Shown here: positions 8,672-57,303 of the stretch, in pieces
Position numbering within the stretch: position 1 is the first letter of the stretch
Layout of the letters: each line of letters opens with the position of its first letter
Notes under the pieces: model-generated
What the model saw: only the letters and a program-made list of their open reading frames with translations
Database searches by the model: none
What the model was told of the DNA's origin: nothing
Made by a program: the position numbers and the translations under genes
NCBI RefSeq assembly: GCF_030816935.1
Contig: NZ_JAUSYO010000001.1
Coordinates: 3,596,001-3,660,000 of the forward strand
Source: Arthrobacter sp. B3I9
Lineage (GTDB): Bacteria; Actinomycetota; Actinomycetes; Actinomycetales; Micrococcaceae
Length of the DNA: 64,000 nucleotides
Reading direction: 5' to 3'

Positions 8672-9292
8672 ATGACACGTTCGGACCAGACGCAGACTGC
8701 CGTCCTGGGCGCCCTGAGCGTCATGCCGATGTCCGGTTATGCGCTCCGGGAGGAAATCAAAAACACCCTGGGACATTTCTGGAGCGAAAGCTTCGGCCAG
8801 ATCTACCCTGCCTTGGCCGAACTCCAGCGCTCTGGGCTCGTCCAGCGCCAGGACCAAGCCGGGGGCCGTTCCTCCAGATATGACATCACCCCGGCCGGCA
8901 CGGCCCGGCTCCGGGACTTGCTCACGGAACCGCCCCAGCCGAACAAACCCCGGAACGGCGTGCTCCTGCGCCTCTTCTTCGGGCGGCAGCTCGGACCGGA
9001 CGCATGCCGCCGGCTGGTGCTCGAGGCACGTGACCAGGCCGAAACCCAGCTCGCGGCCATGGAAACGGCCCGGTCCGAACTGGCTGAAGGCAAGCTTGGG
9101 GACAACACGCCGTTTGCGCTGATCACCGTGGCGGCCGGCGAACACTCCGCGCGGGCCACCATCGCCTGGGCCAACGACGCCCTGGCCATCCTCGAGGCGC
9201 TGGACGAGTCACCGAACAATTCGCCGAGCAAGGCACCGAACGATTCACCGAACGAGCCGCCTGCTACTTCCCCGCCGGCCGCAGCGACGTGA
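8672..9292 (+). CDS. PadR family transcriptional regulator
   Basis: The ATG at 8672 gives a 206-aa protein starting MTRSDQTQTAVLGALSVMPM; an upstream open frame overlaps the divergent gene and the palindrome and is rejected. Residues 8-80 are the PadR winged helix (MSGYALREEIKNTLGHFW, then QIYPALAELQRSGLVQ), and residues 95-185 form the C-terminal dimerisation helices (Vir_C type). The tail has repeats of SPNN/SPSK/SPNE-like Asn-Ser-Pro. Its 3' end overlaps the convergent lipoprotein gene by 29 bases. Confidence 0.88.
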   Translation: MTRSDQTQTAVLGALSVMPMSGYALREEIKNTLGHFWSESFGQIYPALAELQRSGLVQRQDQAGGRSSRYDITPAGTARLRDLLTEPPQPNKPRNGVLLRLFFGRQLGPDACRRLVLEARDQAETQLAAMETARSELAEGKLGDNTPFALITVAAGEHSARATIAWANDALAILEALDESPNNSPSKAPNDSPNEPPATSPPAAAT

Positions 9293-10034
9293 TCATCTTC
9301 CGGATGTCCTGGTACTCGGGCGTCGACGCGTAAAGCCTCGCCTTCTCCAGGTACGGCAGGGACGGGTCGCCCGGCGTCGCATTGTTGTCCGGGTTGTACG
9401 CCGCCCCAAACAAGGCACCGCTCGGTGGCCATAGGAACAGGTGGAACATCGGGCATGCCGTACTTCCGGCCTCCTCCGGAACCATGGTGATCCCGTAGCC
9501 GGCGATAGTAGGCGGCGCCGCCACCGGAGCCGTGCCGCTTCCGCGGGCCTCGAACACGAAGCGGGGAACCGGGGCATCGGCCCCGCCGCCCTCAGCCAGC
9601 GCCTGCAGCGGCACCGTGTCGAACACTTCGGCCGGGTACCTCTCCGTGCAGTCAGCCCCCGTCACCACGTTGGTCCGCAGGCTCGCCATCGGCTTGCCGG
9701 CCTCATTGACCACATCGACGAACTCCCCCTCGAGAGGCATCTCCCCCGCGGGGTCCCTGACGGTCCAGCGGGAGGGATAGTCGAACGACAGCCCGCCGTC
9801 CGACGTCGTGAAGGTCTTCCAGCCCGACGACGGCGTCGTCGCCGTTGCGCCGCTGGTTCCCGACGACGAAGCGGACGGCCCCGCGGTGCCGGCTGCCGCT
9901 GACGACGCCGGTGGCGACGATGCGGGTGGTGTCGATGCCGGCGGTGCCGGCTCCGCCGTCGAACTGCAGGACGCCAACATCAAGACGATGCACAGGCCCG
10001 CGCCAGCAGTGGTGGCTGGTCTCCTCCGCCCCAT
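9264..10034 (-). CDS. secreted lipoprotein of unknown function (paralogue A)
   Basis: About 256 aa from the ATG at 10034, which has GGAGCAAGG in front. The lipobox LASC follows a short hydrophobic signal (CIVLMLASC), so the protein is a membrane-anchored lipoprotein. A Ser/Pro/Ala-rich linker of ~45 residues leads to a globular domain with SFDYPSRWTVRD, NVVTGADCTERYP and CPMFHLFLWPPSGALFG. The same blocks and the same C-terminal MITSLRPAGK occur in the next gene upstream, so the two are tandem duplicates. The domain resembles proteins annotated only as hypothetical in Arthrobacter. Confidence 0.8.
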   Translation of the reverse strand: MGRRRPATTAGAGLCIVLMLASCSSTAEPAPPASTPPASSPPASSAAAGTAGPSASSSGTSGATATTPSSGWKTFTTSDGGLSFDYPSRWTVRDPAGEMPLEGEFVDVVNEAGKPMASLRTNVVTGADCTERYPAEVFDTVPLQALAEGGGADAPVPRFVFEARGSGTAPVAAPPTIAGYGITMVPEEAGSTACPMFHLFLWPPSGALFGAAYNPDNNATPGDPSLPYLEKARLYASTPEYQDIRKMITSLRPAGK

Positions 10035-43994: not shown

Positions 43995-44810
43995 CTAGGG
44001 GGTGCTGGGAGCGTCCGCCGGGCGGATGCCTCCGGCCAGGGTCAGTGCTTCATCCAGCACCGCACCGAAGTTCGCGGGATCGTGCGCGAAGCGCCCCAGG
44101 AACAGGCCCGAGACGCCGTCGAGTGTGGGCAGGAGGCCAGGCTTGGCCGAACCCCCGTAGATAATCGGGAGCCCTGACACGCCGGCCGCGGCAAGCTGCG
44201 CCCGGACCCGGTTGACGACGTCGGACACGTACTCGGCGCCGGCAGGCTCAGCCGCGCCAATGGCCCAGACCGGTTCATAGGCGATGGTGAGCCGGCCGGC
44301 GAGGGTCCAGTCGCCGTCGACGGCCGATTCGATCTGACGGTACACAAACTCGGCCGCCGCGGCCGGCTCGCCGGAGTCGGACTCCCCCACGCACAGTAGC
44401 GGCGTGAGCCCGGCGTCGGCCGCGGCCCGGACCTTGAGGGCAACCGTGGCATCGTCTTCGTTGAAGTGCTTCCGCCTTTCGGCGTGGCCAATCTCGACGA
44501 GCCGGACACCAAGTTCCGCGAGCATGGACGGGGCCACCTCACCGGTCCAGGGTCCGTCTGCCCAGCCGCAGTTCTGCGCCCCGAGCAGCACCTGGGAACC
44601 AGCGAGAAGCTGCGCCGCCGCAGGCAGAACCGGGAAGGACGGGATGACAAACGGGACAACCCGCCCGGCCGCAAGGGCCGGACGGGTGTCCACTTCGTGC
44701 CTCAGCCGTTCCAGCCAGTCCAGGCTGTCCCGGTAACCCAGGTACATCTTGGTGCTGACGCCCACCAGGATGGGCGGCCGGGAGGTCTGGCTGGCTGGGC
44801 TCTGCTGCAT
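43995..44810 (-). CDS. triosephosphate-isomerase-like sugar phosphate isomerase (LerI-like)
   Basis: 271 aa from the ATG at 44810. TIM barrel of the TPI family with catalytic Lys (STKMYL), His (EIGHAERRKHF) and Glu (AYEPVWAIGAA) and the phosphate motif IIYGGSAKPG. It differs from true TPI: NxK is STK, HS is HA, and the flexible loop GTGKTAT is replaced by AAEPAG. Within this operon, beside an RpiB homologue and a DhaKL-type kinase, L-erythrulose-1-phosphate isomerase (to D-erythrulose 4-phosphate) is the best guess. Last gene of the operon, 49 bases after the permease gene. Confidence 0.85.
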   Translation of the reverse strand: MQQSPASQTSRPPILVGVSTKMYLGYRDSLDWLERLRHEVDTRPALAAGRVVPFVIPSFPVLPAAAQLLAGSQVLLGAQNCGWADGPWTGEVAPSMLAELGVRLVEIGHAERRKHFNEDDATVALKVRAAADAGLTPLLCVGESDSGEPAAAAEFVYRQIESAVDGDWTLAGRLTIAYEPVWAIGAAEPAGAEYVSDVVNRVRAQLAAAGVSGLPIIYGGSAKPGLLPTLDGVSGLFLGRFAHDPANFGAVLDEALTLAGGIRPADAPSTP

Positions 44811-44859
44811 TTTGTTGCTGCTTTCGCTGGGTCGAGTTGCCGTGCGGGGCCAGAAGGCC

Positions 44860-46206
44860 TTAGTGCTCCAGCAGCTCGTCGGCCTTGTTGTGGAACCTCT
44901 TCGTCGCATACATCATGACGGCCGCCAGGAACGGGAGCACGCCCAGGGCGAAGATGCCTGCAGAGCCGGTGGGGTCAGCCGCCATCTGGTTGACGGTGGT
45001 CCGGAGGATCGGCGCCACGAACCCGCCGAGGTTTCCGAGCGAGTTGATCAGGCCGATTCCCGCAGCTGCCGCCGTTCCGGTGAGGAACGCCGTCGGGTAG
45101 GACCATGCGATCGGGCCGATGGAGAGGAAGCTGCACACGGCAAGGGTGATGAAGATGATGCCGAGTGCCGGGAGGTGGTTGGTGCCGGCCCACGCGGAGC
45201 CGAAGATGCAGAGGCCGGTGGAGATGAACAGCCCGGTGCCCCAGACCCGGCGGCGGACCAGGGTGTTGGCGGCCTTGCCGATGAAGTAGCAGGCAAAGAT
45301 GCCGAAGAACCACGGGATGGCTGCCATCAGGCCGACGGCGAGGCCCACCTTCTGGCCGGTCAGCTGGGACACCTGCTGCGGCAGGTAGAAGGTGACACCG
45401 TAAACGGCGATCTGCAGGCAGAAGTAGATGATGGTGAAGTACCAGACCTTGCCGTTCCGCATGGCGGGAAGGACACCGCGCGGGCCGGTCTCTTCCTTGA
45501 CGTTGTCTTCCAGCGCCATGACCTCGAGGAGCGCGTTCTTCTCGTCCTTGTTCAGGAACTTGGCGTCCTGCGGGCTGTTGATGAGGAAGAAGTACGCCGC
45601 GATGCCGGCGAGTACGGCCAGCATGCCTTCGACGAAGAACATGACCTGCCAGCCCTGGACTCCGGGCACCTGGTCGCCGATGTTGATCAGCCAGCCGGAC
45701 AGCGGCGCGCCCATCATCTGGGAGAACGGCTGGGCCAGGTAGAAGATGGCGAACATCTTGACGCGGACCTTGTTGGGGAACCACGCCGCCAGGAACATGA
45801 TGACGCCCGGGAACAGGCCGGCCTCGGTGACACCCAGCAGGAACCGCAGGATGATGAAGGAGGTCTCGCCCTGGACGAACGCGAAGCAGGCGGACACGAT
45901 GCCCCAGGTGATAGCAATGCGGGCCAGCCACACCTTCGCGCCGAACTTGGTCAGGAGCAGGTTGCTGGGGATTTCGAACAGGGCGTAGCCGATGAAGAAG
46001 ATACCGGCGCCCAGCGCGAAGGCTCCGGCACTGATGCCCTTGTCCACGCCGAGGGCTGCTTCGGAGAAGCCGACGTTGGTGCGGTCCAAGAAGGCGACCA
46101 CGTAGAGGATCACCAGCATGGGCATCAGCCGGCGGGAGGCCTTGGAAATCGCCGATTTAAGGACCGGCGAGTCCAGGAGCTCCTTGGTGGATGTTGTTAC
46201 GGACAT
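44860..46206 (-). CDS. ACS-family MFS transporter (tartrate/phthalate-permease-like)
   Basis: 448 aa from the ATG at 46206 (GAGGAG upstream); 12 helices. Key blocks are LDRTNVGFSEAALGVDKGIS, GYALFEIPSNLLLTKFGAKV, and the loop FLLGVTEAGLFPGVIMFLAA, with a ~35-residue central loop near 220-260. The anion:cation symporter branch imports sugar acids and dicarboxylates. Its place in the sugar-acid operon supports uptake of the substrate or an intermediate. It is separated from the 42-aa gene by a hairpin. Confidence 0.92.
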   Translation of the reverse strand: MSVTTSTKELLDSPVLKSAISKASRRLMPMLVILYVVAFLDRTNVGFSEAALGVDKGISAGAFALGAGIFFIGYALFEIPSNLLLTKFGAKVWLARIAITWGIVSACFAFVQGETSFIILRFLLGVTEAGLFPGVIMFLAAWFPNKVRVKMFAIFYLAQPFSQMMGAPLSGWLINIGDQVPGVQGWQVMFFVEGMLAVLAGIAAYFFLINSPQDAKFLNKDEKNALLEVMALEDNVKEETGPRGVLPAMRNGKVWYFTIIYFCLQIAVYGVTFYLPQQVSQLTGQKVGLAVGLMAAIPWFFGIFACYFIGKAANTLVRRRVWGTGLFISTGLCIFGSAWAGTNHLPALGIIFITLAVCSFLSIGPIAWSYPTAFLTGTAAAAGIGLINSLGNLGGFVAPILRTTVNQMAADPTGSAGIFALGVLPFLAAVMMYATKRFHNKADELLEH

Positions 46207-46269
46207 AAAAACTCCTCGTCGAGCAATCATTGGTGTAACTCAGTGGGGTGAATCAGTTGCGTGGAGAAA

Positions 46270-46453: not shown

Positions 46454-47221
46454 TTAGTGCATGTAGAGTCCGCCATCCACATTCAGCGTCTGGCCGGAGA
46501 TGTACCCGGCGTCCTCGCTGATGAGGAAGGCGATGGCTGCTGCGATGTCCCGGGTGGAACCAACGCGGTTGACCAGGAGGTCCTTGGTGAGTTCGTCCTT
46601 GCGTTCCTCGCTGAGGGTGCCGCCCATGATGTCGGTGTCGATGGGACCCGGTGAGATGGCGTTGACGGTGATGTCGTACTCGCCCAGCTCGCGGGCCGTC
46701 GCCCGGGTCAGGCCGATGACGCCCGCCTTGGCAACCGAATACGGGGTCTTGGAGAACGTGCCGCCGCCCCGCTGCGCGGAGACAGAAGAAATGTTCACGA
46801 TGCGCCCGATCCGGTTCTTGACCATGGACTCTGCAACGCGGCGGGTGGCGTAGTGGACACCGTTGAGGTTGATGTTCAATACGCGGTCCCATTCGGCTGC
46901 GTCGAGCTCCAAGTAGGGAACCGGTGAGCTCACGCCTGCCACGTTGGCCAGCGCAACGATCTGCGGCAGTTCCGCCTCGATGGCGTCGATGGCCGCACGC
47001 ACCGAGCTCTCGTCAGCTACGTTGGCGCCGGCGCCGAAGGCCTTGACGCCGTGCTCGGCGGCCAGCTCCTTGGCGGCGATCTTGCACATCGCGTCATCGA
47101 GATCGATGATGCCGATGTTCCAGCCCTGTGCCGCGAGGTAGCTGGCGGTGGCGCGGCCGATGCCTCGCTTGGAAACGGCGCCGGTGATGATGGCTGTGCG
47201 TTCAGTGGGGAAAGTGCTCAT
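46454..47221 (-). CDS. short-chain dehydrogenase/reductase of the sugar-acid operon
   Basis: 255 aa. Classical SDR: cofactor loop TGAVSKRGIGRATA, Asp after beta-2 (IGIIDLDD) indicating NAD, NVAG near 95, catalytic Ser in VNISSVSAQ, Tyr-x-x-x-Lys in TPYSVAKAG, and VNAISPGPIDTDI. It ends ISGQTLNVDGGLYMH. It is probably a polyol or ketose dehydrogenase; D-threitol dehydrogenase (DthD) of M. smegmatis is a functional analogue in a related context. It has an AGGAG site and lies 35 bases after the 3-hydroxyacyl-CoA-dehydrogenase-fold gene. Confidence 0.9.
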   Translation of the reverse strand: MSTFPTERTAIITGAVSKRGIGRATASYLAAQGWNIGIIDLDDAMCKIAAKELAAEHGVKAFGAGANVADESSVRAAIDAIEAELPQIVALANVAGVSSPVPYLELDAAEWDRVLNINLNGVHYATRRVAESMVKNRIGRIVNISSVSAQRGGGTFSKTPYSVAKAGVIGLTRATARELGEYDITVNAISPGPIDTDIMGGTLSEERKDELTKDLLVNRVGSTRDIAAAIAFLISEDAGYISGQTLNVDGGLYMH

Positions 47222-47256: not shown

Positions 47257-48243
47257 TCAGCTGATGGGGGCCGGACCGAGGTCCTCGATGAGCTTCTGCA
47301 TGGCCACGTAGGCCTTGTTGCGGTAGGCGATCAGTTCCGGGGTGCGCTCAGCAGGGACGTTGAGGAAGCCGCTGCCGGTCTTGGTGCCCAGCTTGCCGGC
47401 TTCCACCAGGTCACTGAGGATCTTCGGGGTTGCGAAGCGCTCAGGGAAGTCCGTCTGGAGGGACTTGTAGCAGAAGTTGTAGACGTCCAGACCGGCCATG
47501 TCGGCGATGGCGAAGGGCCCGAAGAACGGCAGCCGGAAGCCGAAGGTCGTGCGGACCAGGGTGTCGATGTCTTCCGCCGTCGCAATGTCCTGCTCCACCA
47601 GCTGCGCGGCTTCGTGGAACAGCGCGTACTGCAGCCGGTTGAGCACGAAGCCGGTGACGTCCTTGACCACGGCGGTCTGCTTGTTGGCCGCGTGGACCAG
47701 GTCGCGGACCGCACCGACGGTCTCTGCCGAGGTGCCGGCGTGAGGGATGATCTCCACGCCAGGAATGAACGGGGACGGGTTGGAGAAGTGCACGCCCAGG
47801 AAGCGTTCCGGGTTGCTGACCGGCTCGGACAGGTCCGCGATGGAGATCGTGGAGGTGTTGGAGCCGATGATGGCGTCGGGACGGGCGGCAGCGCTGATGC
47901 GGGCCAGCGTCTCGTGCTTGATGGCGATGACCTCGGGCACTGCTTCCTCGATGAAGTCCGCATCCGCCACGGCCTCCTCAATGTCCTTGGCGGCCCAGAG
48001 GTTTTGCCGCAGGATGTCGGTGGCGCCTTCGGGGAACAAGCCGTCGGCCACGAACTGGTCGGACTCGGTGAGGAGGCGCTCGTAGTTCTTCTGGGCAACT
48101 TCGGCGGAGACATCCGCCAGGGCGACCCGGGCGCCGCCGAGGGCCAGGACCTGGGCGATGCCGCCGCCCATGTAACCGGAGCCGACGACGGCGATCTTGC
48201 GGGCGGCGTTGACTGCGGCTGCGGTTTCTGGTGATTCGGTCAT
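47257..48243 (-). CDS. 3-hydroxyacyl-CoA-dehydrogenase-fold enzyme, probably a 3-hydroxy sugar-acid dehydrogenase
   Basis: 328 aa. Rossmann motif GSGYMGGGIAQVLALGG with Asp at the end of beta-2 (VALADVS), hence NAD. The catalytic His is in LGVHFSNPSPFIPGVEIIP and the partner Glu region is PGVEIIP. The C-terminal helical domain starts near 205 (VTGFVLNRLQYALFHEAAQL). The family includes 3-hydroxybutyryl-CoA, L-carnitine and L-gulonate 3-dehydrogenases. In an operon without CoA genes, oxidation of a C3-OH of an aldonate is more likely than acyl-CoA chemistry. It overlaps nothing and is 2 bases after the RpiB-like stop. Confidence 0.85.
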   Translation of the reverse strand: MTESPETAAAVNAARKIAVVGSGYMGGGIAQVLALGGARVALADVSAEVAQKNYERLLTESDQFVADGLFPEGATDILRQNLWAAKDIEEAVADADFIEEAVPEVIAIKHETLARISAAARPDAIIGSNTSTISIADLSEPVSNPERFLGVHFSNPSPFIPGVEIIPHAGTSAETVGAVRDLVHAANKQTAVVKDVTGFVLNRLQYALFHEAAQLVEQDIATAEDIDTLVRTTFGFRLPFFGPFAIADMAGLDVYNFCYKSLQTDFPERFATPKILSDLVEAGKLGTKTGSGFLNVPAERTPELIAYRNKAYVAMQKLIEDLGPAPIS

Positions 48244-48245
48244 GT

Positions 48246-48728
48246 TCAGACTGCCTTTGAGTATTCGGGTTCGTACGAGCAGATGGCATCCACCTTGGCG
48301 GCGGAGGAGGAGTTCTCATCGAAGCGGTGGTTCAACCATTCGCCGACGAGCTTTTTGGCGAGTTCCAAGCCGATGACGCGCTGGCCCATGGTGAGGACCT
48401 GGGCGTTGTTGCTCAGGACGGAGCGTTCCACGGAGTAGCTGTCGTGCGCGGTAACGGCCCGGATCCCGGGGACCTTGTTGGCTGCGATGGCAACGCCGAG
48501 GCCCGTTCCGCAGATCAGGAGCGCGCGGTCGGCTTCGCCCTCGGCGACTTTCCGGGCGGCGGTGACAGCGAGGTGCGGGTAGGCAGTGGAGTCGTCGGCG
48601 GCAACGCCGATGTCCACCACCGAGGCGACGCGCGGGTCCGCTTCGAGGAATGCCTTGAGGGCGTTCTTGTATTCGACTCCGGCCTCATCGTTGCCGACGA
48701 CGATGCGCCAGCCTGATTGTGTGCTCAT
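48246..48728 (-). CDS. RpiB-like sugar phosphate isomerase (DerI-like)
   Basis: 160 aa. Ribose-5-phosphate isomerase B family: the N-terminus [20 protein letters not shown], catalytic Cys in [20 protein letters not shown], then [20 protein letters not shown] and LTMGQRVIG. In tetritol catabolism this fold converts D-erythrulose 4-phosphate to D-erythrose 4-phosphate, which fits the neighbouring kinase and TPI-like genes. Its start overlaps the kinase stop by 4 bases (ATGA), so they are translationally coupled. Confidence 0.9.
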
Positions 48729-50527
48729 GCTTTAGCTCCTTGTTCCGCCGACCCGTCATCAGCGGGCCCGGCGTCGGTGTATGCAGTATCGGTGGGTGCA
48801 GCGTCTGAATGTGTGCTCTCGACGTATTTTGAAATCCGTGTCGCGATCAGTCCGAAGGAGACCGCGCCGGGGTCCGGGTGTCCCAGGCTCTTTTCGGCCA
48901 GCGGACGGGCGCGGCCCTTGAGCGGGCGGAGTTCGGCCGTCGCGTCGGCGGCTTGCGTTGCTGCTGCGGCCGCCTCGGTCAGGGCGCCGGCCACGGAGTT
49001 CCCTTCCTCGAGCGCGTTTAGGAAGGCGTCCCGGAAGGGCAGAAGGGCATCGACCATGGTTTTGTCGCCGGGTTCGGCCTTGCCGAGTTCGGTGATGGCA
49101 TTGCTGAAGGCGCTGACTGCCGCGGCGGCGTCCTCGCGGGAGTAGTGGTTCCGGTTCCCCAGGGCATGCCCGGCCGCGATGACCGCCGAACCCCACAATG
49201 CCCCGGAGGTCCCGCCAGCCCGTTCGCTCCACGCCTCACCGGCCGCGGCCAGCACCCGCTCCGGCGAAGCACCGCCGGACGTGGCCGCTGCCTGCTCTGC
49301 TGCGGCAACCGCCGCGTCCACACCGCGGCGCATCCCGATCCCGTGGTCACCGTCCCCGGCGATCGCATCCAGGTCGCCCAGTTCCGCTTCATGCTCGACG
49401 ACGACGTCACGCACCTGCCCGAGCACGGCCGCGGCCTGCCCGCCCAGGACCGCCGCCGCCGTCGTGGCCTGTTCGGATTCCTCAGCGGCCGCGTCATCGG
49501 CTGCGGCGACTTCCCGGCGCGCCCGCGGGGCGAGGTTGCCCTTCCGGAACGCCGGAGTGTCCGCCGGCGCTGCCCAGTACTGCTCGAGCTCATCATCAAG
49601 CCACAGCAGGGTCAGGGAGAGCCCGGACATGTCCAGGCTGGTGACCAGCTCCCCGCACTCGGGCTCCACGACCGTCAGGCCCGCGGCGTCAAGCAGCTTT
49701 TCGATCTTCCCGAAGAGCAGGAACAGCTCGTCGTACTTGACCGTGCCGAGGCCGTTGACGATCGCCACGACGCGCGTGCCGGCGTCCTCGGGCTTGTCCG
49801 CCAACAGCCGGGAAACCAGCAGCTCAGCCAGTTCGGAGGCGGTGGGCATGGGATGTTCGGAAATCCCCGGCTCGCCGTGGATGCCAAGACCCAGCGACAT
49901 CTGCCCGGCCGGCACGGTGAACAGCGGTTCGCTGGCGCCGGGCAGGGTGCAGCCGTCGAAGGCAACGCCGAGGGAACGGGTCCGGTAGTTGGTCTTGACC
50001 GCCAGCCGCTCCACCTCATCCAGGTCCAGGCCCGCCTCGGCGGCGGCGCCCGCGACCTTGAAGACCGTCAGGTCCCCGGCGATCCCGCGCCGTTTCTCGA
50101 TCTGTTCCAGCGGTGCGCTGGCGATGTCGTCTGTGACCAGAACGGTGCGGGTCTCGATGCCCTCGGCGTTCAGGCGCAGCTGGGCCTGGCCGAAGTGCAG
50201 GACATCGCCCGCGTAATTGCCGTAGCTCAGCAGCACGCCGCCGCCGGCATTGGCGGCCTTCGCCACCCGGTAAACCTGTCCTGCGGCCGGCGAGGCGAAC
50301 ATGTTCCCGCATGCCGATCCGGCGGCCAGGCCCGGACCCACCAGTCCAGCGAAGGCCGGGTAATGCCCGGAGCCGCCGCCGATCACGAGGGCCACCTGGC
50401 CGGCAGTCATCTCGGTGGACCGGACCACGCCGCCGTCCACCCGGGCCACATAGCCGCGGTTCGCGGCAACGAAGCCGTCCAGCGCCTCATCCGCAAAATC
50501 AGCGGGATTATCGAAAATCTGGGTCAT
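48725..50527 (-). CDS. fused DhaK-DhaL type ketose kinase (dihydroxyacetone/erythrulose kinase)
   Basis: 600 aa. The DhaK half starts [20 protein letters not shown], with [18 protein letters not shown] and [10 protein letters not shown], and the substrate-binding His in [14 protein letters not shown] near residue 215. An acidic Ala-rich linker (~345-370) leads to the DhaL half with the ATP/Mg site [15 protein letters not shown] near 392. The single-chain ATP-dependent form resembles dihydroxyacetone kinase, and the erythrulose kinases (DerK/LerK) belong to the same family. Operon context favours L-erythrulose phosphorylation. Confidence 0.92.
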
Positions 50528-50602: not shown

Positions 50603-51607
50603 TCAGACGCGGGCGGGTTCCGTCGTTGCCGGCTGCTGGTGGCCCTGGGCGACCTTGCTCTGGCCGAGGGCGTAGCCGTCCTTCTTTGGCAGGACGTGGC
50701 GGCGCAGGTAGTCCTGGTTGCTGGCCGTGATGGAAAGCCCGTCGCCGCCGTAGTGCTCCGTGCAGAGAATCCCCTGGAAGCCCACGGACAGGGCAACCTT
50801 GAAGGCCTCGCGGTAGTTGATCAAGCCGGACTCCATCGGGGTTGGCATGGCGACGTAGCTGTCCCGGGCCACGTCCTCATCGCGGAGGTAGTTCTTCATG
50901 TGCCAGTAGTTCGAGTAGGGCAAGGTCTTGGCGAGCACTTCCCGCCAGTCCTCGATCGGGCGGTGCAGGCGGATCAGGTTCCCGGTATCAGGATTGAGGC
51001 CCACGTTGTGGAGTCCGATGTCCTGGACCAGCTGGACGGACATATCCGCCGTGCCGACGAAGGTGTCCTCGTACATTTCCAGGGAGAGCAGGAGACCAAC
51101 TTCTGCTGCGTGGCGGCCCAGTTCACGGAAACGCGCTACGGCGTTGTCCCAGGCTTCCTTGTCCCCCACCGGGTCCTTGTAGCCGTCAACCGTCCAGAAC
51201 CAGAGCTGCTTCTGCTGCTCCGGCGTGATCGCCTGGTGCAGGCCGACCGAAACCACCTCGCAGCCGAGCTCGGCGGCAGCATCGATGGTGCGGTGGCTAT
51301 AGGCCAGGTTCGCCTCCCAGTTGCGCTCGTCGATGACGCTGCGACGGATGGCCGATATAGCGGGAAGGCCAATTCCCACGTTCTCCGCGGTCTGCTTGAA
51401 CTCAGCGAGTCGGGCAGGGCTCAGATCGCCGGGGCGGACCCAGCTGTCCGTGAGGTCGGCAAGCGCGAAGCCGGCTTCCTTGACCTCCGTGAGGACCTCG
51501 GCCCAGGCGGAGGCATCGGCGTCGTTGATGTGTTTGCCTTGGCTGTCGGTTCCCGGGAACGGCAGAAGCGCTCCTGTGATGGGCCAGTTTTCCGCTGTAT
51601 AGGCCAT
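50603..51607 (-). CDS. xylose-isomerase-like TIM-barrel enzyme (isomerase or 3-oxo-acid decarboxylase type)
   Basis: 334 aa from the ATG at 51607 (GAAGGAG upstream). Metal-binding residues are recognisable: Glu in SLEMYEDTFVG (~174), Asp in GLNPDTGNLIRLH (~206), His in YWHMKNYL (~234) and Glu in CTEHYGGDG (~284). This fold covers sugar phosphate isomerases/epimerases, 2-oxo-tetronate isomerase and, in D-apionate catabolism, the decarboxylase OiaC that yields L-erythrulose. It is the first gene of the long operon, 27 bases after a putative operator. Confidence 0.87.
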   Translation of the reverse strand: MAYTAENWPITGALLPFPGTDSQGKHINDADASAWAEVLTEVKEAGFALADLTDSWVRPGDLSPARLAEFKQTAENVGIGLPAISAIRRSVIDERNWEANLAYSHRTIDAAAELGCEVVSVGLHQAITPEQQKQLWFWTVDGYKDPVGDKEAWDNAVARFRELGRHAAEVGLLLSLEMYEDTFVGTADMSVQLVQDIGLHNVGLNPDTGNLIRLHRPIEDWREVLAKTLPYSNYWHMKNYLRDEDVARDSYVAMPTPMESGLINYREAFKVALSVGFQGILCTEHYGGDGLSITASNQDYLRRHVLPKKDGYALGQSKVAQGHQQPATTEPARV

Positions 51608-51633
51608 GGGTCACTCCTTCGTGCGATCCTGTT

Positions 51634-51643
51634 TCCTATAGGA
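51634..51643. promoter_or_regulatory. operator TCCTATAGGA before the long catabolic operon
   Basis: Perfect 10-bp palindrome. On the minus strand a TTGACA lies at 51664-51669, so the site falls about where the -10 would be. Matching sites precede the other two units of the regulon (54185 and 54987). Confidence 0.7.
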
Positions 51644-51671
51644 TTCAGCATCTTGGCCGATGTTGTCAAGC

Positions 51672-52793
51672 TCACATTTGGAGCTGCCGCCTCTTTGCCG
51701 CGAAAGCCGCCGTCTCGAAGACCTCCGGGTTCAGGACGTTGGCCGGTCGCTCCCCTGCCGCAACCGCCAGGATCGACGAAAGGGCGCTGGCCGACACATC
51801 GCGGGTGAAGTCCTCGGTCCAGCAGAGTGAATGCGGGGAAAGCACCACGTTGTCGAAGGTGAGCAGCTCGTCATCGGGCAGGAGGGGCTCCGGCTCGAAC
51901 ACGTCCAGTCCGGCGCCGGCGATACCGCCGCGCCGCAGGGCGTCCCGAAGGGCGTCCGTATCCACAAGTTTTCCGCGGCCGATGTTGATCAGGTAAGCGC
52001 TGGACTTCATCCGGGCCAGGGCAGCGGTGTCGATCAAGTTTTCCGTCTCCGGCGTCAGTGCGGCACAAAGCACAACGTAGTCCGAGCGCTCCAGGAGTTC
52101 GTTCAGGCCCAGCAACTCGACGCCGAGCTCGGCGGCCTCCGCGTGGCGGCCGCTACGGTTATTGCCCACCACGTTCAGCCCAAGCGGGGCCAGCAGGCGC
52201 GCGAGCTCGGCGCCGACGCTGCCGAAACCCACGATCCCGACCGTTTGGCCCACCAGCGGCGCCCCGCGGTAGTGCTCGCGGCGGGCCCAGTCCGAAGTCC
52301 GCGTCAGCCGGTCCTTGGCCAGCAGCTTATGCGAAAGCGCCAGAAGGAGAGTCAGTCCCGCCACCGCCAAGGGCCGGCGGATGGCATCCGGCGTATTCGT
52401 GACAACGACGCCGGCGCGGGTGCACGCGTCCAGGTCGATGGTTTCGTAACCTGCCCCGAACCGGGCAATCAGCTTCAGGTCCGGGGCGTGGTCCACGGTG
52501 CGCGAGTCGAAGGTGATGTGACCCAGCGACAGAACGGCATTTACACCGGAGAGGTCGGGCAGGGGAACCGGGTCCGTGTAACTGGGCAGAACCCTCCAGC
52601 TGATGCCTTGCTCGTTAAGCCGGCCCAACCCCAAGTCACCGTGGATCGAGCTTCCATCCGGCCGGGCAGCATCGGCCGTGACCGCAACGGTAAAAGGTGA
52701 GCGGGTGGTTCCCGCCGGCTGGGTGGTTCCCGCCGGCACGGCGGCCGCCTGGGTGGCGGCCGCCGTCGTCAATTCGTTGGTGCTAGTGCTCAC
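51672..52793 (-). CDS. D-isomer-specific 2-hydroxyacid dehydrogenase
   Basis: 373 aa, with a GTG start at 52793 overlapping the permease stop by 4 bases (GTGA). Catalytic domain at ~30-125 and ~325-370. NAD domain with GIVGFGSVGAELARLL (~183) and Asn instead of Asp after beta-2 (VVGNNRSGRH), which may permit NADP. Catalytic Arg is in NIGRGKLVDTDALRDAL, Glu in VFEPEPLL and His in LSPHSLCWTEDF. A Thr/Ala/Pro-rich ~30-residue N-terminal extension is extra. By family it reduces a 2-oxo acid or oxidises a 2-hydroxy acid; a sugar acid such as a tetronate or 2-keto-aldonate is probable here. Confidence 0.9.
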   Translation of the reverse strand: MSTSTNELTTAAATQAAAVPAGTTQPAGTTRSPFTVAVTADAARPDGSSIHGDLGLGRLNEQGISWRVLPSYTDPVPLPDLSGVNAVLSLGHITFDSRTVDHAPDLKLIARFGAGYETIDLDACTRAGVVVTNTPDAIRRPLAVAGLTLLLALSHKLLAKDRLTRTSDWARREHYRGAPLVGQTVGIVGFGSVGAELARLLAPLGLNVVGNNRSGRHAEAAELGVELLGLNELLERSDYVVLCAALTPETENLIDTAALARMKSSAYLINIGRGKLVDTDALRDALRRGGIAGAGLDVFEPEPLLPDDELLTFDNVVLSPHSLCWTEDFTRDVSASALSSILAVAAGERPANVLNPEVFETAAFAAKRRQLQM

Positions 52794-54130
52794 GCGTCGA
52801 TTCCACTTTCCGTCTTGCTTGCGTTTGTCTTGTCCTTGATGGGCTCGCGGACGAGGACACCGTAGGCCACGGCAGCGAGGGCGGCGATGACGCCGCCGAT
52901 CACGAACGACGGCGCATAGGAGCCCGTGGCGTCGGCGATCACACCGGTGAGCAGCGGGGCAAAGGCACCACCGAAGTAGCCGCCGAAGTTCTGGATGGCG
53001 CCAACCGACGCCACTTGGGAGTTGTCCACGACGTCACCGGGCATGGCCCAGGCCGCTGCCTGCATGGTGGCGACGAAGCCCAGCGCCACGGTCATCACGG
53101 CGATAGCGAGCGGGAGGGAATCGACAAACGGGATGAGGCAGATCAGGATGCCTGCGACTACAGCAGCAACGGACATCACATGGCGCTTAGCCAGCAGAGG
53201 GTCACGGCCCGCCTTCTTGGAGTAGCGCGTCATAACCCAGCCGCCGGTAATGCCCAGGATGGCCGCACCGAGGTATGGCACTGAGGCCAGCCAGCCGGAG
53301 CTTGCGATGCTCGCGCCACGCTCTTCCTGCAGGTAGAGCGGAAGGAAGACGATGAAGATGTTCCAGATCCAGATGACACAGAAGAAGCCAGCCATCATGC
53401 CCCAGATCTGGCGGTGCTTGAAGAGTCCCAGCCAGGAGACCTTCTTGGCGGTCAGGACCTGCGTGGCGCGCTGGCTTTCGATGTACTCCAATTCCTCAGC
53501 GCTGATGCGCTTGTGCTCTTCGGGAGCCCTGTAGTACATGAAGAACGCAAGGGCCAGGACGAGGCCGGCGACGCCGAGGAAGAGGAAGATGGCCTGCCAA
53601 CCGAAGGCGAGCATGATTGCCGTCAGGACGGGAGGGGCGATCGCGGGACCCCACTTGGAGCCGCTGTCCCAGATGGCGGTGGCCTGTCCGCGCTCAGCAC
53701 GGGGGAACCAGTCAGCGGTGAGCCTGGCCGAGGCCGGTGCGTTGGGGGCTTCGGTGACGCCGAGCAGGAAGCGGAAGGTGACGAACTGCCACATCTTGCC
53801 GCCGATAGCCATCAGCGCGGTGGCGATGCTCCAGCCCGCGATCGCGAGGAAGTACATCCGGCGGGCACCCAGTTTGTCGACAAGCCAGCCGACGGGCAGC
53901 TGGGCAAAGGCGTAGGTCCAGGAAAAGACTGTGCCTAAGAGTCCGATGTCCGTCCGGCTCATGCCGAAATCCTTGATCAGCTGCGGCGCGGCAATGGAGA
54001 TCGCACTGCGGTCCATGTAGTTGATGATGCCGGCGGCGAGCGCCCAGCCGAGGATCCACCACCTCAGATTCTTAATGGTGCGGCGCGTTGCTGATTCCCT
54101 GGGCCCTGCGGCCAAAGCTTCTGTTTGCAC
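52790..54130 (-). CDS. ACS-family MFS transporter (sugar-acid permease, DgoT/GudP-like)
   Basis: 446 aa, GTG start at 54130 (GGGAG upstream). Twelve helices with GIINYMDRSAISIAAPQLIK, the loop GWLVDKLGARRMYF, helix 4-5 FRFLLGVTEAPNAPASARLT, ADWFPRAERGQATAIWDSGS and a central loop with EEHKRISAEELEYIESQ. That pattern is typical of D-galactonate/glucarate-type symporters. It heads the unit with the 2-hydroxyacid dehydrogenase gene and has its own operator 55 bases upstream. Confidence 0.93.
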   Translation of the reverse strand: MQTEALAAGPRESATRRTIKNLRWWILGWALAAGIINYMDRSAISIAAPQLIKDFGMSRTDIGLLGTVFSWTYAFAQLPVGWLVDKLGARRMYFLAIAGWSIATALMAIGGKMWQFVTFRFLLGVTEAPNAPASARLTADWFPRAERGQATAIWDSGSKWGPAIAPPVLTAIMLAFGWQAIFLFLGVAGLVLALAFFMYYRAPEEHKRISAEELEYIESQRATQVLTAKKVSWLGLFKHRQIWGMMAGFFCVIWIWNIFIVFLPLYLQEERGASIASSGWLASVPYLGAAILGITGGWVMTRYSKKAGRDPLLAKRHVMSVAAVVAGILICLIPFVDSLPLAIAVMTVALGFVATMQAAAWAMPGDVVDNSQVASVGAIQNFGGYFGGAFAPLLTGVIADATGSYAPSFVIGGVIAALAAVAYGVLVREPIKDKTNASKTESGIDA

Positions 54131-54184
54131 TCTTCACTCCCTCGTGACTTGCGGTGCTGGCACCATAGCCCGCACAGTCGAAGA

Positions 54185-54194
54185 TCCTATAGGG
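54185..54194. promoter_or_regulatory. operator TCCTATAGGG before the permease-dehydrogenase unit
   Basis: One mismatch from the perfect palindrome TCCTATAGGA found at 51634 and 54987. It lies 55 bases before the permease start codon, between that gene and the GntR gene. Confidence 0.65.
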
Positions 54195-54268
54195 TCTTTG
54201 ATCCGCTGTGAAGAGAGTCACATAAATAGCGGATTATGACCTTCGGGACCCGCTGTAGGGAGGCTCAG

Positions 54269-54979
54269 TTACTCTGCCGGAGCGTCAGCGATGGCGCGGC
54301 CACGCACGTTCCGCACGTGCTCCGCCATGGCCGCTGCAGCCTTTTCAGGGTCCCCTGAGGAAAACGCGTCGAGGACCGACTGGTGCTCGGCGATTGCCTG
54401 TTCCGCGTCCGTGATCCCGACGCCGCCGAACAACCGGAAGCGCTGGACCTGGCCGCCGAGGGCGGAATAGGCGGCCACCATGAACTGGTTGCCCGTCTGC
54501 TCCGCGATCAACCGGTGGAACCGCTCGTCGGCCTCCAGATAGTCACGGAACTCCGCGAACGAGGGGCCGCGCCGGGCCTTCTTCAGGTCGGCGACAGCCT
54601 CGGCCAGCGCGGCATGGTCCGTTGGCGTCAACCGGGCGCATGCCAGCCGGGCGTTGACTGGCTCTATGGCGAGCCGCGCTTCCATGAGTTCCGCAAAGTC
54701 CTCCTGCGTGAACATCGGCGCAACCCGGTAGCCCTTGAGGGCGACGCGGCGGACCATTCCGGTATGTTCGAGCCGTGCGAGCGCCTCGCGCACCGGCGTG
54801 GGAGAAACATTGAGCTCCCGGGCGGTTCCATCGATGCTCACCGCTGCCCCGGGTTCGAGCCGCCCGTCGATGAGCGACGCCAGCAGTTCTTCATAGACAT
54901 GGTCGGCGAGGACCTGGCGGCTGACAGGACGGCCCGTTTGGTAGCCCTCAGGGCGACTCCCGGAGGAAGCTAATTGCAT
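54269..54979 (-). CDS. GntR family (FadR/FCD-type) transcriptional regulator
   Basis: 236 aa. Winged helix at ~20-85: DHVYEELLASLIDGRLEPGA, then ARELNVSPTPVREALARLEH and MVRRVALKGYRVA. FCD ligand domain at ~95-225: EARLAIEPVNARLA, then ADERFHRLIAEQTGNQFM and AIAEHQSVLDAFSSGDPEKA, whose Asp/His residues bind a metal-chelated acid ligand in relatives. Such regulators usually sense a sugar acid and repress its catabolic operon. A palindromic operator overlaps its ribosome site, so it is probably autoregulated. Confidence 0.93.
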   Translation of the reverse strand: MQLASSGSRPEGYQTGRPVSRQVLADHVYEELLASLIDGRLEPGAAVSIDGTARELNVSPTPVREALARLEHTGMVRRVALKGYRVAPMFTQEDFAELMEARLAIEPVNARLACARLTPTDHAALAEAVADLKKARRGPSFAEFRDYLEADERFHRLIAEQTGNQFMVAAYSALGGQVQRFRLFGGVGITDAEQAIAEHQSVLDAFSSGDPEKAAAAMAEHVRNVRGRAIADAPAE

Positions 54980-54986
54980 GTTTAAA

Positions 54987-54996
54987 TCCTATAGGA
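54987..54996. promoter_or_regulatory. operator TCCTATAGGA overlapping the GntR ribosome site
   Basis: Perfect palindrome starting 8 bases before the GntR start codon (54979). Identical to the site at 51634, which supports autorepression by this GntR. Confidence 0.7.
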
Positions 54997-55189: not shown

Positions 55190-56260
55190 CTAGTTCTGGT
55201 ACGCCGGGTAATCGGTATAACCCTTGGCACCCTCACCGTAGAACGTGGTCGCGTCCGGCTCGTTGACCGGCAGCCCTTCACGCCAGCGGCGCACGAGGTC
55301 CGGGTTGGCGATGGCAGGACGTCCGACGACGACGGCGTCGGCGTGGCCGTCCGCAACCAGGGCCTTGGCTTCCTCGCGTGTAGTGATGACGCCGAAGCCG
55401 GTGTTCACCAGGAAAGTGCCACCAAAGCGCGCGCGCAGGCCCTGAACCAGCTCGCCTGTTGGCTCCTTGTGCAGGATGCTCAGGTAAGCGAGTTTCAGCG
55501 GGGCCAAGGCGTCAACCAGGATGCCGTAGGTCTCAGTCACATCGGCTGCATCGAGTTCCAGGTTGCCCTGAACGTTGTGCTCGGGCGAGATGCGGATGCC
55601 GACACGGTCTGCGCCGATGGCGTCCACGACAGCACGGGTGACCTCGAGAACGAAGCGGGCGCGGTTCTCCGCGCTCCCGCCGTAGATGTCGTCGCGCTGG
55701 TTGGCGGACGGAGCAAGGAATTCGTGCAGCAGGTAGCCGTTGGCAGCGTGCAGCTCAACGCCGTCGAATCCTGCCCCTATGGCCTTGCGGGATGCCGTCA
55801 CGAATTCCTCAACGATTCCGGGCAGCTCGTCGGTGGTCAGGGCGTGCGGAACCGGGAACGGCTTCTTGCCCTCGTAGGTTCGGGTCTCACCGTCGATGGC
55901 AATGGCACTCGGTGCGACTACCTCGTAGCCACCCGTGGTGGCCTCGTGGGTGACCCGGCCAGCGTGCATGACCTGGGCGAAGATGCGGCCGCCCTCGGCG
56001 TGGACGGCGGAGGTGACGTTGGCCCAGCCCTTGAGCTGTTCCTCTGTCACGAGGCCGGGCTGGCCCGGAAATCCCTGGCCGGCGTGGCTGGGGTAGGTGC
56101 CCTCGCTGACGATCAGGCCAAGTGACGCGCGTTGGCGGTAGTGCTCAACCACCAAGGGGCCGGGAATGCCGTCTTTGCCGGAGCGGACGCGGGTAAGCGG
56201 CGCCATCACCAGTCGGTTGGGCAGTTCAAGATCACCAAGGGTCATCGGGGAAAACAGCAA
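55190..56260 (-). CDS. Old Yellow Enzyme family NADH:flavin oxidoreductase (NemA-type ene-reductase)
   Basis: 356 aa from a TTG at 56260, which has GAAAGGA 9 bases before it; the longer frame upstream is not family-like. FMN TIM barrel: SPMTLGDLELPNRLVMAPLT, GLIVSEGTYPSHAGQGFPGQ, then FAQVMHAGRV. The substrate-binding pair is His-Asn in GVELHAANGYLLHEFLAPSAN, followed by RDDIYGGSAENRARF, and the phosphate site is VVVGRPAIANPDLV. It reduces activated alkenes, nitro compounds or glycerol trinitrate with NAD(P)H. It stands alone. Confidence 0.93.
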   Translation of the reverse strand: MLFSPMTLGDLELPNRLVMAPLTRVRSGKDGIPGPLVVEHYRQRASLGLIVSEGTYPSHAGQGFPGQPGLVTEEQLKGWANVTSAVHAEGGRIFAQVMHAGRVTHEATTGGYEVVAPSAIAIDGETRTYEGKKPFPVPHALTTDELPGIVEEFVTASRKAIGAGFDGVELHAANGYLLHEFLAPSANQRDDIYGGSAENRARFVLEVTRAVVDAIGADRVGIRISPEHNVQGNLELDAADVTETYGILVDALAPLKLAYLSILHKEPTGELVQGLRARFGGTFLVNTGFGVITTREEAKALVADGHADAVVVGRPAIANPDLVRRWREGLPVNEPDATTFYGEGAKGYTDYPAYQN

Positions 56261-56352
56261 TGCACAGTTCCTTTCAAAGGGATTGGGTTCGCTTGTTGTA
56301 ACTGTGCGGCGCCTGCAAACTATTCCGGTTGAGACTCGGATCACTAAGGGTG

Positions 56353-57303
56353 TCAGGGAACGGAGGGAGCGGCGGCGGGGCATCCTTGCCCCTGAGGGTT
56401 TTGGAGGCAGTCGTCAGCGTAGTTCCGGGTGATGGTACGCCACACACTTATCGGCTGGGGCGGGGAGTTGAAGGAGCCTTGTCCCGGAATGGGCAGCGGC
56501 GGGCCGTCATTGACGGAGTAGGTGCCTTTGAAATGGGTGGTCAGCACCACTGCGAAGTCACCCGTCTGCGTGTAGACGTGGCTGGTGAGGGTCTTTTCGC
56601 CCCAGCGTTCTTGCGGCAAGGGAGCCCCGGCGGCCCGCTGCGGACCCATCACTGCTCCGTCGCCATAACTCCAGGTGTATTCGACTGGCCTTGCCACCAC
56701 ATGCACTCGCTGCGCAAGAATGGTGATGTCGAATTGCTGTTCGGCTGCATTCCCGAAAAAGTTGGTTTCGGCGCCGCGCAGGGTGTGCGGGCTCGGCTGG
56801 GCGGTCACGGTGCCTGCCGACACCGGAAGCCGCTGGAACTCGGTTTGGATGACGGCCGCTATTCGGGGCAGCAGGTCTTCGGGCTGGGGATCAAAAAGGC
56901 ACGTTGGGCCGGAGTGGTAGCTCCACGAGGGGTTAGGCACTCCGGCTGGCGCCTTGAGCCACACGACCGGAATCCCCTCTTTACCTTCCGGTCCGTTCTT
57001 GCAGTCGACAAGACCTGCCAGGCACACCGTGTCGAAGTCTCCGCCGCCTAAGTGGCACTGAAGTTCGTACTTGTACTGGTAGGGGTCCGTGGGCGGCGTC
57101 CCAGGCTGGAGGGCGACGAATTTACCTGTGGCAGGGTCAAGGCCCCAAGCGCTCACATTGACCCCTTGGTTTCCAAAACCCGCGTCTACACCGTCGTCCT
57201 CCGCCCATACAACACTGGGATGAAGGACGATCAGGGCCCCCACCAGGATTGCCGTGGCAAGTCTCAGGAACTGATCGAGAACCCGGCTGCTTGACCGGCT
57301 CAT
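56353..57303 (-). CDS. secreted PKD-domain protein of unknown function
   Basis: 316 aa from the ATG at 57303, which overlaps the lipoprotein stop by 4 bases (ATGA). Signal at ~8-35 (FLRLATAILVGALIVLHPSV, cleavage near VWA-ED). Cys pairs are in YELQCHLGGGDFDTVCLAGL and DDCLQNPQGQGC. Residues ~205-285 look like a PKD/beta-sandwich domain: EYTWSYGDGAVMGP, then HVYTQTGDFAVVLTTHFKGT. It is coupled to the DUF6318 lipoprotein gene, a pair common near Arthrobacter surface-protein genes. An adhesive or structural role is possible. Confidence 0.78.
   Translation of the reverse strand: MSRSSSRVLDQFLRLATAILVGALIVLHPSVVWAEDDGVDAGFGNQGVNVSAWGLDPATGKFVALQPGTPPTDPYQYKYELQCHLGGGDFDTVCLAGLVDCKNGPEGKEGIPVVWLKAPAGVPNPSWSYHSGPTCLFDPQPEDLLPRIAAVIQTEFQRLPVSAGTVTAQPSPHTLRGAETNFFGNAAEQQFDITILAQRVHVVARPVEYTWSYGDGAVMGPQRAAGAPLPQERWGEKTLTSHVYTQTGDFAVVLTTHFKGTYSVNDGPPLPIPGQGSFNSPPQPISVWRTITRNYADDCLQNPQGQGCPAAAPSVP

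Follow-up and report, generated by a model that had tools for sequence, protein, structure and literature searches.

A conserved actinobacterial regulon with a predicted route from a sugar acid to erythrose 4-phosphate

Mycobacterium smegmatis is said to degrade tetritols through LerK, LerI and DerI (described by Huang et al. in 2015), and the D-apionate pathway of Carter et al. (2018) reportedly runs through the 3-oxo-isoapionate decarboxylase OiaC and then LerK, LerI and DerI. Two articles describe how alpha-proteobacteria degrade erythritol, using EryC and two other isomerases (PMC12780249, PMC10733421), and one of them also covers the M. smegmatis tetritol pathway with LerK, LerI and DerI (PMC10733421). 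Here we analyse a minus-strand locus in a 64,000-nucleotide stretch of the soil actinobacterium Arthrobacter sp. B3I9 (contig NZ_JAUSYO010000001.1, positions 3,596,001 to 3,660,000; this whole stretch is called the window, and its own numbering is used). The locus combines a xylose-isomerase-like TIM barrel with a fused DhaK-DhaL kinase, two sugar-phosphate isomerases and a dehydrogenase of the 3-hydroxyacyl-CoA-dehydrogenase fold (HCDH). On balance, we lean towards a catabolic regulon under GntR/FCD control, in which a sugar acid would be converted to a 3-oxo acid, then to erythrulose and CO2, to an erythrulose phosphate and finally to erythrose 4-phosphate. Gene content, conserved linkage, the shared operator and the paralogy of the isomerases are direct observations.

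The TIM barrel (50603..51607; PF01261) belongs to the family of PDB entry 5TNV and is a predicted 3-oxo acid decarboxylase. Downstream lie the fused Dak1-Dak2 kinase (48725..50527; PF02733 and PF02734; NF011049 at 766.8 bits, above the cut-off of 492), an RpiB-like isomerase resembling DerI (48246..48728; LacAB_rpiB; TIGR02133 at 207 bits, above the cut-off of 168.2) and the HCDH enzyme, a predicted sugar acid C3 dehydrogenase (47257..48243; PF02737 and PF00725, 3HCDH_N/3HCDH; nearest solved relative 4om8, 180.7 bits). The kinase and RpiB-like genes overlap by 4 nt. The last gene encodes a LerI-like relative of triosephosphate isomerase (TPI; 43995..44909; PF00121 at 173.8 bits), which scores 198 against the TPI equivalog model, under its cut-off of 293. 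As first called, its open reading frame (ORF) runs into the preceding permease gene; since relatives measure 238-284 aa, the true start is likely Met34 (about 44810). The locus thus holds a fused DhaK-DhaL kinase, a distinct TPI paralog and an extra RpiB-like paralog, as expected of a LerK-LerI-DerI module, and the RpiB-like protein scores 161.5 against the DerI model of Rhizobium type (NF051858), under the cut-off of 240. Every named gene is an intact open frame on the minus strand, and all gene families named in the original prediction have matching family models. That prediction placed the system at 50603-54979, which is indeed part of the regulon but only half of it, as the operon continues to 43995.

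The locus shares with the apionate/OiaC route an acid oxidation, a PF01261 TIM barrel, a DhaKL kinase and TPI-like and RpiB-like isomerases. It differs in having an HCDH-fold enzyme and no KARI/PGDH_C oxidoisomerase. The ApnO-type oxidoisomerase, which we take to be PF16896/KARI_N, was not found in the window operon by family scan; such a gene lies elsewhere in the genome at C1 ~927.9 kb. It is part of an apionate-like cluster (C1:915000-934900, L116) with a permease, a DhaKL kinase, RpiB-like and TPI-like isomerases, a PF01261 barrel (271 aa), a PGDH_C/KARI-type protein (281 aa), a DRL_cat/SAF oxidoreductase and an FCD regulator; the labels ApnO and OiaC used for this cluster are assigned by family resemblance. 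The window TIM barrel occupies the slot matching that of the OiaC-like barrel, named by context only, to which it is ~22% identical (HHalign 96.6%), with E, D, H-x-K and E-H aligned. A whole-genome search found no CCTATAGGA site, the operator core described below, in the apionate-like cluster. With no ApnO-like enzyme in the operon and a separate apionate-like cluster with its own kinase and isomerases in the genome, D-apionate was rejected as the substrate, and the apionate route invoked in the original prediction had to be given up.

With the M. smegmatis tetritol pathway the locus has in common the module of kinase, TPI-like and RpiB-like isomerases. In contrast to that pathway, it has acid permeases, an acid dehydrogenase and the added TIM barrel, and versions without the TPI-like gene exist. 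In the erythritol pathway, too, erythrulose phosphates lead to erythrose 4-phosphate; there, erythritol kinase and EryB take the place of the DhaKL kinase and acid dehydrogenase found here, and neither family was detected among the ten locus proteins scanned. A DUF1537 (OtnK) kinase with SBD_N/NBD_C domains was likewise not found in the window operon by family scan, and such genes neighbour some other loci. By the features compared, the apionate/OiaC and tetritol routes come nearest to the proposed route, which would be a member of neither. PDB 5TNV itself is a Mg-bound xylose-isomerase-like TIM barrel of M. smegmatis whose entry title names no function. No paper in the literature searched mentioned 5TNV, and among the papers listed in the searches none described the proposed route, the latter being weak evidence, as subscription papers lay mostly outside this literature.

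To assess conservation, we compared related loci, using gene calls and family labels from an in-house ORF caller and BLAST cut-offs rather than annotation. In the Arthrobacter-group set, comprising the best 80 of 162 loci found, the TIM barrel, kinase, RpiB-like and HCDH genes occurred together in 77; the other three loci end at a nearby contig edge. Thus, the gene order of the core is not due to chance, and the neighbourhood analysis proposed for the TIM-barrel gene yields a conserved four-gene core. The TPI-like gene was found in 65 of these 80 loci, GntR in 65 and the permease gene preceding the TPI-like gene (permease a) in 63. Neighbours within 7.5 kb were counted in the 142 complete loci, those with enough sequence on both sides, out of 156 with a called TIM barrel. 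These contained the kinase in 122 cases, the RpiB-like gene in 119, the TPI-like gene in 102 and HCDH in 120. The loci are not independent, about half coming from a single Arthrobacter group. A few strains may also have been counted twice, as suggested by L009 and L174, whose contigs are equally long. When this group was cut to one locus with and one without TPI, the remaining 69 loci had kinase 49, RpiB-like 47, TPI-like 43 and HCDH 47 times. The TIM barrel is usually found together with the DhaKL kinase and RpiB-like isomerase, and HCDH adjoins it in many loci of the class. Outside the genus, 28 of 394 sampled genomes of the class held a match to the TIM barrel, 19 of them with an E-value of at most 1e-60, and in the order Micrococcales 77 of 297 sampled genomes had one at E 1e-50. 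A search of 151 genomes of the family Mycobacteriaceae returned a single match, the query's own genome.

A different layout was seen in nine Arthrobacter-group loci (L029, L032, L039, L041, L054, L069-L072), where genes for an ABC importer, Gfo-Idh, PF01261, ThuA and again Gfo-Idh precede the TIM barrel-kinase-RpiB-HCDH core; families were scanned in L029 and assigned by similarity in the other eight. In such operons, keto-glycoside-type genes may feed the core.

We next consider regulation. Comparison of the intergenic stretches ahead of the TIM barrel, the accessory permease b or the regulator revealed one strongly conserved palindrome, with the core CCTATAGGA in 63 of 64 regions (61 from relatives, three from the window). 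The window has three copies, two exact and one with one mismatch, against 0.25 expected, and three copies were reached in 0 of 100 shuffles. One copy, TCCTATAGGA, lies upstream of the TIM-barrel operon (51634..51643), the mismatched copy upstream of permease b (54185..54194), and the third upstream of the gene for the GntR/FCD regulator (54987..54996), consistent with autoregulation. Four CCTATAGGA sites exist in the 4.1-Mb genome, namely these three and one ahead of a TIM-barrel paralog (C1:752333-753253; L115:9513-10460) that is 57% identical and has the operator 54 nt upstream. The pattern gave seven strand-matches genome-wide compared to 14 for the backwards-read control. Thus, the motif is rarer than its reversed control, and every site is correctly placed.

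Across relatives, TIM-barrel loci totalling 3.03 Mb contained 190 matches to CCTATAGG, and 187 of them were located ≤400 nt upstream of a gene of the family (TIM barrel 107, GntR 62, kinase 10, permease b 5, HCDH 2, PdxA 1), while five palindromes of equal composition gave 5-21 matches each. The other three matches lie in the gap between HCDH and a KdgT-family permease (L230), before a 454-aa ORF (L225) and before a 310-aa ORF (L075). In 26 further genomes we found 31 TCCTATAGGA palindromes (none in four of the genomes), against nine for the reversed pattern, and 26 of the 31 fell inside TIM-barrel loci. The remaining five were in kinase/permease gaps (two), a TetR/RpiB-like gap, a GntP/SDR gap, and ahead of kinase-RpiB-TPI-GntR on another contig. 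In one genome with a split pathway (L326, L325), the palindrome precedes both unlinked halves, TIM barrel-HCDH-SDR-permease and kinase-RpiB-TPI-GntR. In distant loci the consensus broadens to about WTCCTATAGGAW (43 sites), with a site in 29 of 76, and the 11 Arthrobacter-group loci that have either of the other two layouts lack the operator. Taken over the complete loci, GntR, TPI and the site occurred together in 78, none of the three in 31, and a mixture in 33. The locus is therefore a real, tightly defined regulon, in agreement with the single regulon originally proposed. Because the GntR gene and the site co-occur, the FCD protein (54269..54979; PF00392 and PF07729) is predicted to bind the operator and to control its own gene. 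A sigma-70 scan found one promoter-like site, over the permease b operator, which is near chance (two in the region against a shuffle mean of 1.0).

The TIM barrel carries the Glu-Asp-His-Glu metal set noted originally, as E177, D207, H236 and E284. In 157 aligned sequences (window included), E177, D207 and E284 were kept throughout and H236 in 149, with Q in the other eight. K238, R213, R242 and R266, which would suit an anionic substrate, were also invariant. The dehydrogenase partnering the barrel varies among four unrelated families: HCDH, PdxA (L122, L123 and others), Iso_dh (L121) and HIBADH (L187, L203). All four families oxidise a hydroxyl group located beta to a carboxylate. On a tree of 76 TIM-barrel sequences the partner changes at least 10 times by parsimony, compared to a mean of 13.5 (minimum 9) with shuffled labels, loci holding several of the families being counted as HCDH first. 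The permeases at loci of the GntR/operator type belong to carboxylate families (ACS-type MFS, GntP, TctABC, KdgT), and in L182 a gluconolactonase-family gene directly follows HCDH. These partners, permeases and the gluconolactonase-family gene therefore fit a sequence of acid, 3-oxo acid and TIM barrel. The context thus supports the acid substrate, the beta oxidation, the TIM barrel as the next step and the entry at erythrose 4-phosphate, all of which had been proposed. The original outline is right in kind, with corrections.

From sequence we infer the reactions, the substrate and its handedness, as follows. The permease would import a sugar acid, most likely a pentonate, whose C3 hydroxyl, beta to the carboxylate, would be oxidised by the HCDH-fold enzyme. 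The metal-dependent TIM barrel would then strip CO2 from the 3-oxo acid to give erythrulose, a substrate for the DhaKL-type kinase. For D-erythrulose 4-phosphate, the RpiB-like isomerase would suffice to reach erythrose 4-phosphate, whereas L-erythrulose 1-phosphate would require the TPI-like isomerase before the RpiB-like step.

The TPI-like gene is divergent, as noted originally: 55 operon-type TPIs form a branch apart from 19 housekeeping TPIs (support 1.0), the latter taken from 35 loci after 16 were dropped by a motif filter. Most operon-type proteins lack the Asn of the NWK motif (S-x-K in the window) and keep the catalytic Lys, His and Glu. Two or three TPIs were found in 13 genomes with the gene in the locus and one in G239, whose locus is without it; likewise, G499, G602, G638, G618 and G503 (TPI-less loci) have one each and G616, G582 and G439 (TPI-bearing loci) two each. 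Among 11 Arthrobacter-group genomes with TPI-less loci, the nine with an ABC/ThuA-type operon have one TPI, and their four core proteins are 77-90% identical to those of the window; the other two (L027, L030) have three, as each carries an operon of the window's type in addition. In total, 17 genomes with a TPI-less locus were tested, and 15 of them have no second TPI, their single copy being of housekeeping type. A TPI-less locus can also mean that the gene is elsewhere, as in G607, which carries it on another contig. Thus, the core can work without LerI in these 15 genomes, unless the housekeeping TPI substitutes, and its product need not be L-erythrulose. Neither the TPI-like step nor the full kinase/TPI-like/RpiB-like trio invoked in the original prediction is obligatory.

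Decarboxylation of a 3-oxo-L-pentonate would give L-erythrulose. For this reason and because the TPI-like gene is present, we favour as substrate in the window an acid of the L series, for example L-xylonate, L-lyxonate or L-arabinonate, or else a mixture. In the collapsed set, TPI occurred in 20 of 20 loci with acid permeases only and in 5 of 11 with sugar importers or glycosidases only (Fisher p = 0.0006, merely a guide as the loci are related). The five sugar-type loci with TPI (L132, L206, L220, L224, L227) are one family group, all with GH39 nearby (within counting distance in three, further out in two). Five loci appeared to combine an acid permease with absence of TPI; three of them (L006, L075, L080) have TPI by tblastn, and L027 and L030 are true exceptions. 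Glycosidases (GH3, GH51-type, GH39) close to other loci would point to pentoses as the source in those organisms.

An alternative function for the TIM barrel is that of an erythrulose or erythrulose-phosphate 3-epimerase, like EryC (presumably itself a PF01261 member) or an L-ketose 3-epimerase, with the 3-oxo acid decarboxylating spontaneously or on the dehydrogenase. Several observations speak for this or weigh against a decarboxylase. The fold matches are compatible with both activities, and next to 5tnv the closest folds include ketose 3-epimerases, one of them a Thermotoga enzyme with bound erythrulose. PdxA and Iso_dh enzymes normally release CO2 unaided, and in three split loci of the PdxA type (L122, L124, L185) the barrel remains in a unit with the kinase and isomerases, whereas PdxA lies separately. 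For nine sequences of the barrel tree, no member of the four dehydrogenase families lies nearby, the kinase is absent from 20 of the 142 complete loci, and the paralog at 752 kb adjoins AI-2E-type transporter and Ldh_2 genes, without a kinase. EryC is described as an erythrulose-phosphate 3-epimerase acting upstream of LerI and DerI (PMC10733421). However, a D-to-L epimerisation would be useless in the 15 genomes that keep the barrel without a second TPI, and an L-to-D epimerisation would render the operon's own TPI-like gene superfluous. Moreover, the barrel stays with HCDH in the split loci of the HCDH type (L130, L131, L133) and in kinase-less loci (e.g. L129, L211-L215). We therefore consider an epimerase unlikely, if a serious contender.

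Acids of other chain lengths would leave parts of the gene set unexplained. A C6 acid could lose CO2 after oxidation at C3 and leave a pentulose, with the kinase forming a pentulose phosphate and the RpiB-like protein being a genuine ribose 5-phosphate isomerase; its score of 207 on the actinobacterial ribose-5-phosphate isomerase model, the ability of the core to work without the TPI-like enzyme and the keto-sugar genes (Gfo/Idh, ThuA) adjoining TPI-less Arthrobacter-group operons agree with this. But no task on a pentulose phosphate is apparent for the TPI-like gene, which 102 of the 142 complete loci contain, and at least two RpiB genes were already present in all 15 genomes searched (five in the window's own), making a C6 acid improbable. 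A C4 acid (threonate or erythronate) oxidised at C3 would yield dihydroxyacetone, which the kinase and TPI-like enzyme could take to glyceraldehyde 3-phosphate. The kinase passes the dihydroxyacetone kinase family model and OtnK/HIBADH tetronate genes lie near some loci, but this scheme leaves the RpiB-like gene (119 of 142) without a role and has to accommodate a TPI-like protein lacking the Asn of NWK and loci with no TPI at all. We judge it very improbable.

Returning to the decarboxylating pentonate route, a wider proposal is held tentatively, being as a whole doubtful. This would be a widespread actinobacterial route that turns C5 sugar acids into erythrose 4-phosphate at the cost of only one carbon, in which the 5TNV family is a new 3-oxo-pentonate decarboxylase, the core is a plug-in unit fed by any of four beta-hydroxyacid dehydrogenases, and the TPI-like gene sets the enantiomer. 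In loci with the GntR operator and TPI, vitamin C-derived L-pentonates, along with L-erythrulose, are perhaps the substrates. Genes of the OtnK/HIBADH type, part of threonate catabolism, are found beside loci such as L118, L125, L226 and L229, and the vitamin C reading is consistent with these threonate-type neighbours. According to a review, breakdown products of vitamin C include L-xylonate, L-lyxonate and L-erythrulose (PMC11276620). If true, a function would be assigned to a structurally solved family found in 77 of 297 Micrococcales-order genomes, and a decarboxylating pentonate route would join the known pentose and sugar-acid pathways. The operator motif could be used to trace the regulon and its inducer, and loci with and without the TPI-like gene provide a natural experiment on sugar handedness. 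More generally, the gene set is a tightly co-regulated one, common to many actinobacteria, that probably oxidises a sugar acid and decarboxylates it to a four-carbon sugar for central metabolism.

The remaining genes of the locus are less constant. A D-2-hydroxyacid dehydrogenase (51672..52793; PF02826/PF00389, 2-Hacid_dh; nearest solved relatives glyoxylate reductases, 190 bits) and the major facilitator superfamily (MFS) permease b (52790..54130; PF07690) overlap by 4 nt. They were found in 6 and 7 of the 80 Arthrobacter-group loci, respectively, and were thus ruled out as part of the core. The two acid permeases and two acid dehydrogenases emphasised originally do share the operator here, but the second set is an optional insert, which probably admits the 2-keto acid form. 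In one relative (L008 ~8804-9921) the D-2-hydroxyacid dehydrogenase slot is occupied by two short ORFs (208 and 164 aa), reflecting a frameshift, decay or sequencing error. MFS permease a (44860..46230; PF07690) is, like permease b, of the anion:cation symporter type; TIGR00893 (2.A.1.14-type) is the top model for both, at 257.5 and 295.7 bits for a and b, below its cut-off of 395. The short-chain dehydrogenase/reductase (SDR; 46454..47221; PF13561), missing from some loci of the family, is a candidate sugar 1-dehydrogenase, tetritol dehydrogenase or other enzyme. Adjoining the regulator is a conserved gene (55190-56383) of Old Yellow Enzyme type, as judged by reading its translation, which is present in 47 of the 80 Arthrobacter-group loci; it is probably outside the regulon because the operator at 54987-54996 sits at its 3' side. 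A divergent M20-family peptidase gene was seen beside the TIM barrel or regulator in two other loci (L188:4220-6361, L196:9747-11135).

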